From assembly GCA_946183145.1 (NCBI GenBank), contig CAMGZM010000018.1, positions 1-32,418 on the forward strand: DNA of 32,418 nucleotides, read 5' to 3'. The translations under genes and the position numbers were made by a program. This document shows, piece after piece, positions 19,123 through 26,409 of the stretch. The notes below the pieces were generated by a model. The model made no database searches. It saw only the letters and a list, made by a program, of their open reading frames with translations, and was not told the origin of the DNA. The first letter of the stretch is position 1; each line of letters begins with the position of its first letter. This stretch comes from an uncultured Fretibacterium sp. Lineage in GTDB: Bacteria > Synergistota > Synergistia > Synergistales > Aminobacteriaceae.

Positions 19123-19692
19123 TTAGTTCCTAATTGCATCCCTCATCGCATTTACCCTCCTTAACCATCCCTTCAAAAATACCCCTTGACCCGGACGATT
19201 CCTCACTATATCCCTAAAATATTTCTCTCGCTCATCACATATCTTTTCTCCCAATAACCCCGGCTCAATCCTCTTTATTCCCGTTAATGTCTTCGGTCCC
19301 ATTTTTCCATCTACTACAACATTCCCACCGCATTCATTCACCGCTCGCTGTAATATTTTCGCAAATCCTCCGTGATTTATTGCGCAGTCCAAACAGCACA
19401 AACATGCAGGATATTCCACTTCCCCCCATCCGTATTTATCCCAATAATTTGCACGATATATCTTTTTTGCCTCGTCGATTGTCAGCTTGCATATATCATC
19501 ATGGCCGATTATTCCCTGTTTATACGCACTCTTTAACGTTGACCATGTTACACCATACGCCGTCGCCCCTCCTAAATCTGCCCTCGCCGCTCCCTTGATT
19601 ACCGGCCTTCCGTTTATGATTGTGAAATTCCTTCCGCCTTCCCATCTTAACGAAAATTCTATACTGCGTTCAAATTTCTCTTCCTCTGTCAT
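19123..19692 (-). CDS. phage endolysin, glycoside hydrolase family 108 with peptidoglycan-binding domain
   Basis: The 189-residue product shows the GH108 start FERSIEFSLRWEGG with catalytic Glu18, the family segment GGATAYGVTWSTLK, and the YRANYWDKYGW region. The C-terminal part (about residues 100-175, CAINHGGFAKILQRAVN, DGKMGPKTL) matches the companion peptidoglycan-binding domain. It would hydrolyse the glycan backbone during lysis. ATG 19692 is used because AGGAGG lies seven bases upstream; an in-frame start 12 codons earlier has none. There is no signal peptide, so a holin is expected but none is recognisable nearby. It is the last gene of the minus-strand prophage block. Confidence 0.87.
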   Translation of the reverse strand: MTEEEKFERSIEFSLRWEGGRNFTIINGRPVIKGAARADLGGATAYGVTWSTLKSAYKQGIIGHDDICKLTIDEAKKIYRANYWDKYGWGEVEYPACLCCLDCAINHGGFAKILQRAVNECGGNVVVDGKMGPKTLTGIKRIEPGLLGEKICDEREKYFRDIVRNRPGQGVFLKGWLRRVNAMRDAIRN

Positions 19693-19749
19693 GATTATCC
19701 CTCCTGATAAAATTTCCCCCTCACTCATTGCAAGGGGGATTGTGTTGCT

Positions 19750-19896
19750 TTATTCCGCGTATGCGTATTCCGTTCCCGTTATCTTCTCATATTCTGAGGC
19801 TGTCAGCTTGCCTTTTGCTACTGCGTTCCTCAACCTCACATCATCCCATAATCCCATGTCATACCATGCTTTTATTAACGCGTAATCTTTGCTCAT
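19750..19896 (-). CDS. XkdX family small phage protein
   Basis: A 48-residue protein starts at ATG 19896 after AAGGAGGGT. The pattern MSKDYALIKAWYDMGLWDD, then VAKGKLTASEYEKITGTEY, is that of the XkdX family (from the Bacillus PBSX prophage), short proteins found after tail-fibre genes. The function is unknown. It sits between the 106-residue gene and the endolysin in the same direction, with short gaps. Confidence 0.85.
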   Translation of the reverse strand: MSKDYALIKAWYDMGLWDDVRLRNAVAKGKLTASEYEKITGTEYAYAE

Positions 19897-19908
19897 CTTT
19901 TACCCTCC

Positions 19909-20229
19909 TTAAATTTCAACACCTGTCATCATCGCTATGTACGCTATATTTGCGTCCCGTCTTGCATCCGCGTATATCTCTTTGGGAATATCAGCCAGCG
20001 CAAGCCCGTATTTCCCCTCCATTTCCCTAATATAACATATCTCCATGTGCGCATGTGTCCCCGTTATACCGTCGTCATATTCAGATTTGCCTTCATCATT
20101 GCTGATTGTTGCGGGTGCTAATTTACCCCTGATTTTCGCTCCGTCTATAGGGTTGTCGCTGAAGAATATATTACGTTCAAACGTTAATCCCTCAATTTTT
20201 GAGCCGTCATTAAGTGTTATCGTGTACAT
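19909..20229 (-). CDS. phage protein of unknown function (tail-fibre/lysis block)
   Basis: I do not recognise a family with certainty. The 106-residue product starts at ATG 20229, eight bases after AGGAGG. It begins MYTITLNDGSKIEGLTFERN, has a short beta-rich N-terminal half and an alpha-helical C-terminal half (EIYADARRDANIAYIAMMTG). Small proteins in this position, between the last tail-fibre gene and xkdX, are common in phages of Firmicutes. A fibre assembly or structural role is possible but not supported by a motif. Confidence 0.7.
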   Translation of the reverse strand: MYTITLNDGSKIEGLTFERNIFFSDNPIDGAKIRGKLAPATISNDEGKSEYDDGITGTHAHMEICYIREMEGKYGLALADIPKEIYADARRDANIAYIAMMTGVEI

Positions 20230-20244
20230 AAGTGATCCTCCTTT

Positions 20245-21432
20245 CTAGCCTATGTGTATATACGGACACGCGAGAATGCCGCCCAACTGATTCGTAGTAG
20301 TACTAGCCGCAAATCCATATCGCGTAAATTCCCAGTTCAATGACCCCCACGATTTCACGGACCAGCTTTCATTGAGCCATTGAAAGACCATATAGAAGCG
20401 CATAGTGGGGTTAAGCCTGAAAAGCGGCCAGTCTGGATTATTCCCCGCGATCCTGTAAGACAAGTTTGATGAAGGGAGCCCCATAATATTCGTATAAGAC
20501 GGGAGCCCGATTTTCACGCCTGTGTGATTGGTGAAATTGTTATCGATCACCGTATAGTGATCGACATTGTTCGAGCTGTTAATACTGTCGCTGACCTCCT
20601 CAAGGAAGGGGAGAATATACTCGTCTGGAATGACTTCATTAATTTTGGCGAGCATATAGGGGAAATGTTCAGTATACATTTTAGTGTTCAAAAACCCGCC
20701 CTCAACATTATCCGTGTCATTGATGGAGAAATTCCAGCTGCTATTTCTGAGCCATAACAGCACGTGAGGTTTGTGATATGCTAGTCTATGGTTTGAGCTA
20801 CAGCCGACGACGTAAGCGGTAGTAGTGCCGTCAATGGGTAAATTCCAGTAATCGCCCGGGTAAATATCCGTGAAAGTCCCATTTCTGATAGCGGCAATCT
20901 GAGCTGCGGTAATTGCGGTGCCTAAGTTCTTACCCCTGTAATACGAGTTGTGAGCGGCAGCGTTGTTATACGTGAGAATGTTAGTTCTGTCGTTGAGCGT
21001 AACAATTTCACCCCCACCCTTCAGACTTTCAAGCCATTGTGCTTTTGTCCCCGTGAACCCTTCCTCAACAGCTATCTCAAACGCCGATTTGCCATGCAGA
21101 GTCTGCGTATCTTGATCCCAGTAACGGGTCAAATCGTTGTAAAGTTCCGTGAGCTGAGAAGCAATCTGTGAAGGGACATGAGCCGTAAAATTCCTCACAA
21201 TGTGATACGTAGATTCGTCTACGGTTGAGCCGTTGAATGCGGTTTTAAGTGTCAAGTGAGTATTATCGGCAATGGACGCGATTTCATAATCCGCAACGCC
21301 GTCAACGCTGAAAATATCGCCGGGGTTAAGCCCTGCCGTCAACCAAAATGTATTAGTACCGACGACAGAGGTCGAACCCGTAACGAGCTTCACAGTGCCT
21401 TTTCTGTACCAACGTGTATATGTGCCAGCCAT
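20245..21432 (-). CDS. phage tail fibre / receptor-binding type protein
   Basis: The 395-residue product has a beta-rich N-terminal domain (residues 1-80, strands ending in NTHLTLKTAFNG). A short linker follows with SAFEIAVEEGFTGTKAQWLESLKG near residues 116-139, a module typical of phage tail fibres that joins the virion-bound part to the distal part. The distal region (about 140-395) is rich in aromatic residues, Asn, Ser and Gly, as in receptor-binding domains. It overlaps the start of nothing else but begins one base before the stop of the upstream 144-residue gene. The protein likely decides host range, and its distal half is the part expected to vary between related phages. Confidence 0.75.
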   Translation of the reverse strand: MAGTYTRWYRKGTVKLVTGSTSVVGTNTFWLTAGLNPGDIFSVDGVADYEIASIADNTHLTLKTAFNGSTVDESTYHIVRNFTAHVPSQIASQLTELYNDLTRYWDQDTQTLHGKSAFEIAVEEGFTGTKAQWLESLKGGGEIVTLNDRTNILTYNNAAAHNSYYRGKNLGTAITAAQIAAIRNGTFTDIYPGDYWNLPIDGTTTAYVVGCSSNHRLAYHKPHVLLWLRNSSWNFSINDTDNVEGGFLNTKMYTEHFPYMLAKINEVIPDEYILPFLEEVSDSINSSNNVDHYTVIDNNFTNHTGVKIGLPSYTNIMGLPSSNLSYRIAGNNPDWPLFRLNPTMRFYMVFQWLNESWSVKSWGSLNWEFTRYGFAASTTTNQLGGILACPYIHIG

Positions 21433-21866
21433 TAATATATACCTTCTTCCTTTTCAAGTTTTTTAGTTAAAGAGTTGAGATAAAGAATCATAGACTGCGC
21501 AAGATTTTCATACTGAGAAATCAACGCTTCAGCGGCCATTAACCGAGTATCCAAATCATTAATGTGTTGAGCGGTAATATTCGCCAATATGCGCAGATTC
21601 GTATCAGTATTAATTTCAATAAACGGGAGGTTATTCCATCGTGTAACTCCGTCTCCTGCTTTGAGCCTGACTCTTGATGACGTTGAATTAGTGCTGAAAA
21701 CGGGATTTCCATTGCTGAACGACACAAGAGTGTTATCGTCTTCACACTGAGTGCAAACCGCGATTTCCCCGAACATGAGAATGGGATTAAGCGTCGACCA
21801 TTCGGACTCGGTCTTAACGGTCAAGCAAACGTGTTGAGGGTAAAGAGTTGAATTAACGAGGGACAT
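21432..21866 (-). CDS. phage tail-tip/fibre-associated protein with C-terminal coiled coil
   Basis: The 144-residue product starts at ATG 21866 after AAGGAGG. The N-terminal part (residues 1-85) is beta-rich and contains LNPILMFGEIAVC and VRLKAGDGVTRWNNLPFIE. This is the same kind of module as in the neighbouring 135-residue protein (GEIGLE ... LGDGSTTWGELDY), a fold known from the N-terminus of phage tropism and fibre proteins. A coiled coil follows (about residues 95-140, DLDTRLMAAEALISQYENLAQ). It probably forms a trimeric fibre segment or a connector. Its stop overlaps the fibre gene start by one base. Confidence 0.65.
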   Translation of the reverse strand: MSLVNSTLYPQHVCLTVKTESEWSTLNPILMFGEIAVCTQCEDDNTLVSFSNGNPVFSTNSTSSRVRLKAGDGVTRWNNLPFIEINTDTNLRILANITAQHINDLDTRLMAAEALISQYENLAQSMILYLNSLTKKLEKEEGIY

Positions 21867-21929
21867 AAATCAAGCCTCCTTTTCTGTAGGATGCCCCCCT
21901 GTATCAGACCGAGGGGGAATGCGTGAGAA

Positions 21930-22337
21930 CTAGTTACCAGACGGAGCGGGGTTTGCGCTGATTACCGTAATTCCCTTGAGGGCGGCAATATCTGCATCCT
22001 GCTCAGTGTCTTTAGCCTCAATAGCCGTCATACGAGTCTCGTGAGCAGTGTCCTTAGCTTCTAGAGCGTCTAATTTCACGTCCTGCGCATCGTCTTTAGT
22101 CTCAACAGCCGTAACGCGTTCTATAAGTGAAGAAACGAGGGCGGTAACCTGAGGGTTTGAGTAATAATCCAGTTCTCCCCAAGTAGTGGAGCCATCGCCG
22201 AGCTTGTATTTCTTAGTGTCGAACTCAAGCCCGATTTCCCCCGCAAGCAATACATCAGAAGCCTGCCACTGGTCAGCATTCTTATACTTAAGCTGAATGC
22301 TAACGCCGTATAAACCGTTATTCTGAATGGTAGCCAT
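21930..22337 (-). CDS. phage fibre-connector protein with N-terminal tropism-type module and coiled-coil repeats
   Basis: ATG 22337 is used; AGGAGG lies 13 bases upstream, within an in-frame extension that starts at 22373 and is unlikely to be translated. The 135 residues start with MATIQNNGLYGVSIQLKYKN and contain the module VLLAGEIGLEFDTKKYKLGD followed by GSTTWGELDYY, as found at the N-terminus of tail-fibre or tropism proteins. Residues 70-115 form a coiled coil with three repeats around the core ALEAKDT/AIEAKDT. It is the first gene of the minus-strand prophage block, so its promoter must lie in 22338-22749. Confidence 0.65.
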   Translation of the reverse strand: MATIQNNGLYGVSIQLKYKNADQWQASDVLLAGEIGLEFDTKKYKLGDGSTTWGELDYYSNPQVTALVSSLIERVTAVETKDDAQDVKLDALEAKDTAHETRMTAIEAKDTEQDADIAALKGITVISANPAPSGN

Positions 22338-22390
22338 GCTATAATAGAGACCTCCTAAAAAAAAATTATTCATCTTTTCAGGTACAAATT

Positions 22391-23201: not shown

Positions 23202-23233
23202 TTGGCAGAAAAAATATAGAAAAGTGATATAAT
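23202..23233 (+). promoter_or_regulatory. extended -10 promoter of the predicted small RNA
   Basis: TGATATAAT is a perfect extended -10 element (TG, one base, TATAAT at 23228-23233). TTGGCA lies upstream at 23202-23207, but the 20-base spacer is long, so the extended -10 is the main signal. Start of transcription would be near 23240, 50 bases after the regulator stop. Confidence 0.6.
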
Positions 23234-23239
23234 ACGTAT

Positions 23240-23387
23240 CAGAGAAATTACACCAAAAATTTCCTATCCGTGATTTTGATATGCCGGATATCCGGCCTAT
23301 GTCCTTCGAACTGATAAATGAGACTATGAGAAATTACGGATGCTTCTTGTACATATCAGCCCTGCACAAACGCAGGGACTATTTTTT
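23240..23387 (+). ncRNA. predicted structured small RNA upstream of the terminase genes
   Basis: The roughly 148-base segment runs from the extended -10 promoter to a rho-independent terminator (CCCTGC / GCAGGG at 23360-23377, followed by six T) and has no open frame with a ribosome site. A long-range stem closes the middle part: ATCCGTGATTT at 23266-23276 pairs with AAATTACGGAT at 23331-23341 (eleven pairs, one G-U). Inside it GATAT-GCCGG-ATAT-CCGGC-CT-ATGTC (23279-23304) forms a ten-pair hairpin with a two-base bulge; its core GCCGGATATCCGGC is a 14-base DNA palindrome. I do not recognise an RNA family. Role is unknown; a regulatory RNA or a transcribed late-control region are possible. Confidence 0.5.
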
Positions 23388-23411
23388 ACCCAAACGATAA
23401 ACGCAAAAAAG

Positions 23412-23426
23412 TTTGATAGTATCAAA
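23412..23426. promoter_or_regulatory. TTTGATA-G-TATCAAA inverted repeat, possible operator
   Basis: Two perfect seven-base arms around a single base lie between the small-RNA terminator and the small terminase gene. A direct repeat GGTCAAA occurs shortly after, near 23441 and 23459. The arrangement suits a binding site for a phage regulator, for example the late activator encoded just upstream. The remaining sequence to 23628 holds no gene I can support; a weak GCGG/CCGC hairpin followed by T lies near 23540-23565. Confidence 0.45.
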
Positions 23427-23628
23427 TAAATCACATAAAAGGTCAAACACTAAAAAACGGTCAAAACACAATTCGGGATTACCCCCTATTTATAAACATA
23501 GCTGTATCAAGGTACTGTGAAAGGCTGTAAAAGGGAATGCGGAGCCGAGACCGCGCTATTTTTCTAACCATAGGAATTTTAAAAGTTCGGTAACTTCAAA
23601 CAAGAGGGATAAAAGGAGATGAATACTG

Positions 23629-23919
23629 ATGCGGGGAATGTCAAGCATAGATGAATTAAACCAGGAGCGCGCCCGGTATACGCGAATAAAAGCCGATAAG
23701 GAAGAATTGAAGCTAGAGATATTACGCGGTGAATACGTGAGGAAGGCTGATGCTCAGAAAGATTATGACGACAAGGCGGGGAATGTCCGTAAAAAGTTAT
23801 TGGCGTTAGAGGGACGATTGCCCGTACAGCTAGAGATGAAGAAAGCGGGAATAATCTCGGAAATACTGCATGATGCGATATATGAGGTGCTGAGTGAACT
23901 GGCAGGTGATAAGCCATGA
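23629..23919 (+). CDS. terminase small subunit-like protein (Nu1 C-terminal type)
   Basis: The 96-residue product starts at ATG 23629 after AGGAG. The sequence RARYTRIKADKEELKLEILR, followed by GEYVRKADAQKDYDD and VRKKLLALEGRLPVQLE, is the repeating helical pattern of Nu1-like small terminases in the part after the DNA-binding domain. The usual N-terminal winged helix is absent, so the protein is short (Nu1 of lambda is 181 residues). It overlaps the methyltransferase start by four bases (ATGA). Small terminase recognises the packaging site and loads the large subunit. Whether this short form still binds DNA is unclear. Confidence 0.65.
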   Translation: MRGMSSIDELNQERARYTRIKADKEELKLEILRGEYVRKADAQKDYDDKAGNVRKKLLALEGRLPVQLEMKKAGIISEILHDAIYEVLSELAGDKP

Positions 23920-24611
23920 AGTACGGGGAAATAATCGAATTAGGGCGGCACAAGCTGATGTGTGGAGATGCGACGAGTCGTGATGATGTTATTAGGCTTG
24001 TTGACGGAGTGAAGGTTGACTTGGTGCTGACTGATCCGCCGTATGGTATTCGTATATTGGGTAACAGTTCGCGGGGGACTCTAGGTTCAGGAGGGCGGAA
24101 ATATCCTGAAGTGATAGGGGATAACGGAACGGCCATGTTCAAGGAGCATTACCACATAGCGCGCATACTCTGTAACAACATGATTATATGGGGCGGGCAG
24201 AATTTTACGGAATTTTTGCCTGCTTCATGCGGTTGGCTGTTCTGGGACAAGGACAAAGGAACGGACAAGTTATCATTTTCGGACGGCGAATTAGCGTGGG
24301 CGAATATCTTAACGAGGATAAAGAAATACAAATACAAATGGAACGGCAATAACATAGGGGGAAATCCTGAGCTGAATACCCGCGTACATCTGACACAAAA
24401 GCCCGTAGAGCTGCACATGAAAATTCTTGAGGACTTCAGCAAGCCTGATGACGTAATACTCGACTGTTTTGGCGGATCAGGAACGACATTAATCGCGTGC
24501 GAGATGACAGGCCGGAAATGCCTCATGATGGAGATTAGCCCGGAGTATTGCGACATAATCGTTGAACGTTACAGGAAGTTGCGGGAAGTGATGCCCCTTG
24601 CTGTTGTCTAA
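23916..24611 (+). CDS. phage DNA methyltransferase (amino-methyltransferase, beta-class motif order)
   Basis: The 231-residue product has the catalytic motif DPPYG (residues 40-44) ahead of the S-adenosylmethionine motif DCFGGSGTTLIA (about residues 183-194), the motif order of the beta class. DPPY-type enzymes methylate the exocyclic amino group of adenine (N6) or cytosine (N4); the base cannot be told from this alone. LMCGDATS near the start and TQKPVELHMKIL are typical of phage and plasmid orphan methyltransferases. No restriction gene is adjacent. It lies between the small and large terminase genes, overlapping both (4 and 14 bases). It may protect phage DNA from host restriction or mark it before packaging. 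Confidence 0.88.
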   Translation: MKYGEIIELGRHKLMCGDATSRDDVIRLVDGVKVDLVLTDPPYGIRILGNSSRGTLGSGGRKYPEVIGDNGTAMFKEHYHIARILCNNMIIWGGQNFTEFLPASCGWLFWDKDKGTDKLSFSDGELAWANILTRIKKYKYKWNGNNIGGNPELNTRVHLTQKPVELHMKILEDFSKPDDVILDCFGGSGTTLIACEMTGRKCLMMEISPEYCDIIVERYRKLREVMPLAVV

Positions 24612-26409
24612 CGCGATATTTACGCCGCCGCCTGACATGAAGATTTCAGATTGGGCGGATGAGTTTCGTGAATTGCCGCCTGAAGCAAGCTGTGAGCCCG
24701 GGCACTGGTCAACCGACAGAGCACCATACCAGCGCGAAATGATGAATGCGATTTGCCCCCCGTCAGCCGAAAGAATCGTAATGATGACCGCCGCGCAAGT
24801 CGGAAAATCTGAGATATTGCTCAACACAATAGGTTACTATATTCATAAAGAGCCGTCGCCTATATTGATGATGCAGCCTACGTTAGAGATGGGCGAGTCA
24901 TTCAGCAAGGACAGAATAGCGACAATGTTGCGAGATTGTACGTGTCTTCATGGGAAAGTGAAAGACCCCCGAGCGCGTGATTCAGGGAATACGCTTTTGC
25001 ATAAGACATTTCCCGGCGGCCATATAACAATAGCAGGAGCAAATTCCCCGGCGAGTCTTGCATCACGGCCGATTAGAGTCCTGCTGTGTGATGAGGTAGA
25101 CAGATACCCCGTATCAGCAGGCACTGAAGGCGACCCGTTATCACTCGCAATGAAGAGGACGCAAAACTTCTGGAACAGGAAGATCATCATAGTATCAACA
25201 CCGACGCATCAAGGCATATCCCGTATCGAGAAAGAATATCTCAACAGCACCCGCGAAGAATGGACTCTGCCATGTCCTAAATGTGGAGGCTATAACGCGC
25301 TGGATTGGGAACGCATAATCTTTGAGGGCAAAACTGAGCCAGTTATGAGGTGCGAGCATTGCGGTTATGAGGGCAATGGTTACGACTGGAAATCACAGAG
25401 TCATAAAGGGAAATGGTTACGAGGGAATGAGTCGCATGTGAGAGGATTTCACGTAAACGCGCTTGCCTCACCGTGGGTATCATGGCCGGAAATAGTCAGG
25501 CAATATGACGAGGCATATCGCAACGGTGTGGACATGCTCAAGGTATGGCGCAATACAGTATTAGGACTGCCGTATGAGGAGACAGCCGGAACGATAGAGA
25601 TAGACAGCATGAATGACCATGAGGAGACTTACGGAGCTGAATTGCCCGATGAAGTATTGTTGCTGACAGCGGGAATTGATACGCAGGACAACAGGCTGGA
25701 GGTAGAAATCTTAGGTCATGGCCTGAACAATGAGACGTGGGGGATTGAGTACAAGATACTATACGGAGATCCCGGGGATAAAGTATTGTGGGAGAAATTA
25801 GACGAATATTTGAGTCGAGAATGGCATTACGCCGACGGTGAAAGCCTCAAAGTATCATGCGCATGTATAGATTCAGCAGGGCATTTTACGGATGAAGTTT
25901 ACAGCTTCTGCAAGGACAAAGCACGGCGCAATATCTTCCCGATAATAGGACGAGGCAAGTTCGGGCTGCCGTCAGTATCACGTCCGACAATGCACAAGCG
26001 AGGTCAAGTCTACCTGTTCAAGTTAGGAGTCAACACTATCAAGGGAGAATTATTTACGAGGCTGAATGCGTCAAGAGGCGAGTCGGGATATTGTCATTTT
26101 CCGGCCGAAAAAAACAGGGGTTATGACCGGGTATATTACGCAGGTTTGTTGTCTGAAAGAATGATAATGAGGCGCAAAGGCGGGCAGGAATATATAACGT
26201 GGGAAGTTCGCGACAAGAAGATACGAAATGAGCCGCTTGACTGCCGTGTATATGCTTTAGGAGCGTACAAGATTCTCAACCCTGATATGTCCCGTCATGT
26301 TCGCAAAAAGACTCAGACTCAGACTCAGGCGCAAAAATCTCCGGCCATGTCAAAACCCGTGAAAAAGCTAATGAGGCCTCGAATATTCAGGAGGGGGATA
26401 ACGTTATGA
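24598..26409 (+). CDS. terminase large subunit, GpA family
   Basis: The ATP-driven motor and nuclease that packages DNA into proheads. The 603-residue product has Walker A TAAQVGKSE (about residues 64-72), Walker B VLLCDEVD (about 160-167), a zinc-ribbon-like pair CPKCGG and CEHCGY (about 225-258) and the nuclease segment AGIDTQDNRLEVEILG (about 355-370), in GpA order and length. TTG 24598 with GGAAG upstream overlaps the methyltransferase; ATG 24637 (MKISDW) is the alternative start. A Thr-Gln repeat near the C-terminus is encoded by three copies of actcag. GpA-type terminases usually cut at cos sites. Confidence 0.93.
   Translation: MLLSNAIFTPPPDMKISDWADEFRELPPEASCEPGHWSTDRAPYQREMMNAICPPSAERIVMMTAAQVGKSEILLNTIGYYIHKEPSPILMMQPTLEMGESFSKDRIATMLRDCTCLHGKVKDPRARDSGNTLLHKTFPGGHITIAGANSPASLASRPIRVLLCDEVDRYPVSAGTEGDPLSLAMKRTQNFWNRKIIIVSTPTHQGISRIEKEYLNSTREEWTLPCPKCGGYNALDWERIIFEGKTEPVMRCEHCGYEGNGYDWKSQSHKGKWLRGNESHVRGFHVNALASPWVSWPEIVRQYDEAYRNGVDMLKVWRNTVLGLPYEETAGTIEIDSMNDHEETYGAELPDEVLLLTAGIDTQDNRLEVEILGHGLNNETWGIEYKILYGDPGDKVLWEKLDEYLSREWHYADGESLKVSCACIDSAGHFTDEVYSFCKDKARRNIFPIIGRGKFGLPSVSRPTMHKRGQVYLFKLGVNTIKGELFTRLNASRGESGYCHFPAEKNRGYDRVYYAGLLSERMIMRRKGGQEYITWEVRDKKIRNEPLDCRVYALGAYKILNPDMSRHVRKKTQTQTQAQKSPAMSKPVKKLMRPRIFRRGITL

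Follow-up and report, generated by a model that had tools for sequence, protein, structure and literature searches.

The window, by which we mean the whole 32,418-nt stretch of the uncultured Fretibacterium sp. contig analysed here, carries prophage packaging and head genes in the order TerS, DNA methylase, GpA-type TerL, portal, protease and capsid (Table 1). A small RinA-type regulator gene lies directly upstream of the packaging genes, and in the gap between them we find direct repeats, a promoter and a segment that, judging from its promoter-leader-terminator organization, is very probably the 5′ untranslated leader with which the late operon of packaging and head genes begins. Most relatives of the TerL are found in Synergistaceae genomes that were assembled from ruminant guts. 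On the other side of the regulator, minus-strand endolysin and tail-fibre-like genes (19123-22373) directly precede it and adjoin host genes, and early phage genes are not seen in this region. The element may therefore be rearranged or incomplete.

Table 1. Features at the start of the prophage late operon (window positions).
Feature	Position	Strand	Basis
RinA/Ltr-type late transcription regulator, 145 aa	22750..23187	+	homologue alignment A1, phrog_36, AlphaFold model
Two 11-bp direct repeats, AATTGCGTAAA and AATTGGCAGAA	23189..23210	+	lag-11 repeat, p=0.010
Extended -10 promoter, TGATATAAT	23225..23233	+	sequence; aligned with relatives
Predicted untranslated leader transcript, ~147 nt	23240..23387	+	promoter and terminator positions; fold z -4.16; no coding homologue
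Long-range 11-pair stem enclosing palindrome hairpin	23266..23341	+	fold; not found in any relative
Intrinsic terminator	23358..23387	+	hairpin 23360-23377 and U-rich tail
Conserved cos-like motif, AAGGTACTGKGA ... GC-rich core ... TTTCTARCCAYAG	23514..23572	+	lies between terminator and TerS
Terminase small subunit (TerS)	23629..23919	+	phrog_57, 2.7e-16
Terminase large subunit (TerL), GpA type	24598..26409	+	PF05876 4.6e-78, PF20454 9.7e-77

By itself the window regulator gives a weak match to phrog_36 (E 0.015). All 14 members of alignment A1 match this 'transcriptional regulator' family, the best at 3e-15, with 6 also matching TIGR01636 (phage_rinA) and 7 matching DUF1492. The RinA protein of phage phi11 falls into phrog_36 at 1.9e-38, and a profile comparison with phi11 RinA gives E 1.3e-5. 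The AlphaFold model of the regulator (pLDDT 89.6) has two long helices and a helix-turn-helix, and is closest to models of phage DUF1492 proteins, sigma-70 region 4 and activators. No Q protein is among its top 50 PDB fold matches, and none of the Q families (PF03589, PF06530, PF06323) is among the Pfam matches listed for its homologues; a single phrog_79 match is at chance level. Single-query searches of viral contigs with the regulator and TerS returned no relatives. The same genome encodes a second regulator of this family (L050, G000:C16:20211-20642), which has no repeats or terminator downstream.

The extended -10 promoter described by the sequence-only reading is present as TG-A-TATAAT (TG at 23225-23226, TATAAT at 23228-23233), placing the predicted transcription start at ~23240. 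Inspection of the sequence before it revealed no -35 element at the usual spacing. Upstream of the -10 are several direct repeats, which together with the adjacent regulator gene are the marks of a RinA/Ltr-controlled late promoter; in addition to the two listed, a third, weaker repeat reaches 23221. When 21 loci are pooled, the autocorrelation is highest at lags of 11 and 22. These 11-bp repeats are probably binding sites of the regulator that replace a -35, and for Alt of TP901-1 binding to four repeats between -76 and -32 has been reported (PMC13123087).

The predicted fold of the 148-base segment has an energy of -38.9 kcal/mol (z -4.16), and 5 of 269 GC-matched 148-nt stretches of the window fold equally well. 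Much of the excess stability is supplied by the terminator, as z is -2.99 without it and -4.64 for the terminator alone. All structural elements proposed from sequence are found: the 11-pair stem joins 23266-23276 to 23331-23341 with pair probabilities of 0.87-1.00, the 14-base palindrome GCCGGATATCCGGC at 23283-23296 forms a 5-bp hairpin, and the terminator hairpin is followed by ACTATTTTTT. The terminator is modest, at -10.3 to -12.3 kcal/mol. An ATG frame of 39 aa (23281-23400) runs across it; we rejected this frame as a leader peptide, finding neither a ribosome-binding site nor a credible homologue, in line with the proposal that the segment holds no supported open frame. The leader had likewise been assigned to no known RNA family, and an Rfam search with 23240-23387 gave nothing at gathering score and nothing credible at E ≤ 5. 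BLAST against 83 family genomes, distant blastn against a phage collection and exact 20-mer matching in viral contigs recovered only chance or promoter/terminator fragments of the leader.

Comparison with relatives separates the parts of this region that are kept from those that are not. In the nearest relative (G062, TerS 74% identical), the -10 and its 40-nt distance to the regulator stop codon are identical to those of the window, and its leader, ~70 nt to the terminator end, is unrelated in sequence, so that only promoter and terminator are common to the two. Neither the stem nor the palindrome was found in any compared relative. A new conserved structured RNA family is therefore not supported, there being no Rfam match and no homologue of stem or palindrome, and the internal stem and palindrome appear from these comparisons to be dispensable or phage-specific. 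The suggested packaging function of the leader is not supported either: a separate conserved cos-like motif lies downstream, and its conservation does not extend to the leader. This motif also stands upstream of TerS at seven other loci (L275, L265, L266, L268, L267, L273 and L007), is retained even where leader and regulator differ, and probably serves as cos for this group of GpA-type terminases. A terminator-like hairpin at 23538-23555 falls inside the motif and was not counted as a terminator.

What recurs among related loci is a layout: a RinA-family regulator (PHROG 36), 11-bp repeats, an extended -10, a short leader, an intrinsic terminator and the packaging genes, as read from sequence. 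Terminators were called with a self-written strict scorer, tightened once before the second-order sample described below; the loose version had scored 42% in shuffles. At 19 of 28 loci the predicted start is followed by a strict terminator no more than 260 nt away, compared to 1.0 expected from shuffles, in a set that includes several related Alt leaders and was partly picked for a visible promoter. The Synergistota set of 46 regulators was not picked by promoter, and there a terminator is present at 10 of the 17 loci with repeats and at 4 of the 29 without (Fisher p=0.0024), with 18 of 588 control windows positive. Around half of the loci have no strict terminator. Several leaders are short, their terminators ending after just ~30-70 nt. 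Upstream of the promoter we observe only two terminator matches, both within repeat arrays; an insulator would be expected upstream, so the downstream terminator is unlikely to be a mere insulator. The sequence-only reading was thus essentially right to suggest a late-gene attenuator at this place, after a late regulator and before the terminase genes, with the support of many related loci; of its broader interpretation, the conserved structured RNA and the packaging role are not supported.

With scorer and thresholds unchanged, we examined a new sample of PHROG 36 genes from another bacterial order, centred on a genome labelled Eubacteriales. A terminator falls within 220 nt of the stop codon in 33 of 67 genes, against baselines of 1.2% in shuffles and 4.5% (26/576) in control windows, and the strong ones reach ~-22 kcal/mol with U-tracts. 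A terminator after a gene is unremarkable alone; what is notable is a promoter between gene and terminator. Where there is room for one (26 loci), an extended -10 occupies this interval at 12 (2.0 expected), and 15 carry a pair of -10-like hexamers offset by exactly six bases (4.0 expected). This abutting second hexamer is enriched in the second-order set only; double hexamers are seen in RinA late promoters from L291 to L356, for example TATTAT-GATATT-GTG. Terminators were not linked to repeats in this set (Fisher p=0.24); greater degeneracy of its repeats may be the reason. The annotated next genes after the layout include TerS, TerL, HNH endonuclease and portal; one locus, L304, leads to an integrase.

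The order of promoter, then terminator, is also common to phi11, PVL and TP901-1. Phage phi11 has rinA, the repeats AAATTGGCAGT and AAAGTGGCAGT, a -10, the terminator GGGTTGGCTGATTATAGCCAATCC-TTTTTT and terS, and shares the repeat core TTGGCAG with the window. In PVL, 18-bp repeats and TATAAT are followed by a terminator whose end is near +48. TP901-1 carries four 11-bp units where Alt binding is reported and, immediately ahead of terS, a terminator. A terminator is annotated directly before terS in A118 as well, although none near its late promoter passed the strict test. In related Lactococcus phages whose leaders have been swapped by recombination, the terminator is kept in the cases read. 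The strict test detected no terminator in those early-region gaps of the model phages that were checked. Some Lactococcus and Enterococcus late leaders contain tRNA genes (L098 4135-4376, L360 14594-14666, L221 2581-2654, L182 2680-2751), which follow the late promoter region and precede the packaging genes.

Taken as a whole, the region is best explained, with a probability of roughly 0.55, as a late-operon leader that would work like lambda pR′-tR′. Regulator bound at the repeats would switch the promoter on, and most transcripts would end at the terminator by default, yielding the predicted ~147-nt leader as the counterpart of the lambda pR′-tR′ RNA. The terminator lies downstream of the sole recognisable late promoter and therefore must be passed for late genes, which would be made only when polymerase reads through. 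Read-through would most probably come from the regulator joining the departing polymerase and rendering it termination-resistant, as Q and AlpA do. The lambda Q and Pseudomonas alp proteins bind promoter DNA and travel with the polymerase (PMC6606751, PMC7171158, PMC9371919), AlpA has been shown to be an antiterminator rather than an activator (PMC7969949), and GafZ is another protein of this working mode (PMC11150451). Because Q and AlpA pass such terminators in this way, we favour the regulator itself as the antiterminator, to which we would give slightly less than even odds. A wider proposal, that RinA/Ltr regulators, across a broad range of phages from more than one bacterial phylum, are also processive antiterminators, loading at the 11-bp repeats and carrying polymerase through the leader terminator, Q-like and yet unrelated to Q, is put forward more tentatively still.

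Known systems resemble the window in different respects. Lambda pR′-tR′ with Q also has the late regulator gene directly upstream, a regulator site at the promoter, a short leader RNA and an intrinsic terminator that separates the late promoter from the late genes. The window differs in that its regulator belongs to the RinA/Ltr group, outside the Q families, its sites are repeats upstream of an extended -10, and the pause element in the first transcribed bases that characterizes Q-type promoters is not clear; among pooled loci, -10-like pause elements at -2 to +20, which both Q and AlpA require, are not enriched (12 vs 10.1 expected). The phi11, phi13/PVL and TP901-1 systems (RinA/Ltr/Alt) share the phrog_36 family, direct repeats upstream of the -10 and a promoter in the gap before the packaging genes; however, they are described as plain activator systems, and a leader terminator goes unmentioned in PMC13123087. 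In the AlpA/PalpB/tB system of Pseudomonas aeruginosa, the regulator is likewise a helix-turn-helix protein that contacts promoter DNA ahead of an intrinsic terminator, and it lets polymerase read through as an antiterminator, not as an activator, but AlpA uses a single site between -10 and -35 and no relation to the RinA family was detected. GafY/GafZ of the Caulobacter gene transfer agent cluster combine activation and antitermination at the start of a phage-type late cluster, with two proteins plus IHF and a terminator placed after the first gene. The literature searched, which lacked the main early Ltr-family paper, contained no account of the regulator-promoter-terminator layout.

The main and serious rival, which we rate as rather unlikely, is that the regulator only boosts initiation while a leaky leader terminator damps background late transcription from its own promoter or from upstream, yet lets sufficient transcripts through at full promoter activity, with no antitermination. 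RinA, Alt and Ltr have been described as activators, and a phi13 reporter that extends ~50 bp downstream of the start stays Ltr-dependent (PMC13123087). By our own count, a ~50-bp cut in the related PVL sequence removes most of the terminator U-tract, and since the reporter is Ltr-dependent with most of the U-tract removed, Ltr probably activates initiation by itself. The phi13 reporter, the missing enrichment of a pause element where one would be expected and the absence of any detected similarity to Q all speak against antitermination, and activation alone also agrees with the modest window terminator and with the loci missing a strict one. However, the several strong terminators of the second-order sample would then waste most late transcripts, and the promoter-then-terminator order survives leader exchange. 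Activation and antitermination may both be at work, as with GafYZ (PMC11150451).

Two further readings have little probability. As a ~147-nt promoter-to-terminator unit with an above-chance fold, the segment could encode a trans-acting small regulatory RNA of the prophage, but leader sequence and structure differ even in the nearest relative while the layout is kept. Equally improbable is that the terminator merely ends the regulator transcript and the -10 match is incidental, with the late promoter elsewhere, such as in 23388-23628; terminators after genes are common and the start sites here are predicted, but both the 11-bp repeats and the extended -10 are seen again and again in the interval from gene to terminator, and it is at this very place that the late promoters of TP901-1 and phi13 have been reported (PMC13123087). 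Least probable is antitermination in cis by the leader RNA, its stem and palindrome binding polymerase like the HK022 put RNAs (PMC9378689): two stable stems do precede the terminator and the fold retains excess stability without it, but relatives have no similar structure and several leaders reach the terminator end within those few tens of nucleotides.

RinA-type regulators control the packaging and structural genes of many phages, including well-studied Gram-positive phages, and those of the RinA/Ltr family have been known for more than 10 years as activators. A terminator that separates a RinA-type promoter from the late genes, in phages whose hosts differ, implies that initiation is followed by a second control step, and its recurrence in many phages suggests that RinA-type regulators may have to carry RNA polymerase past a stop. 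If these regulators do act on elongation, an unrelated protein family would join the known phage antiterminators, and the expression of a long late operon from just one promoter would be accounted for.
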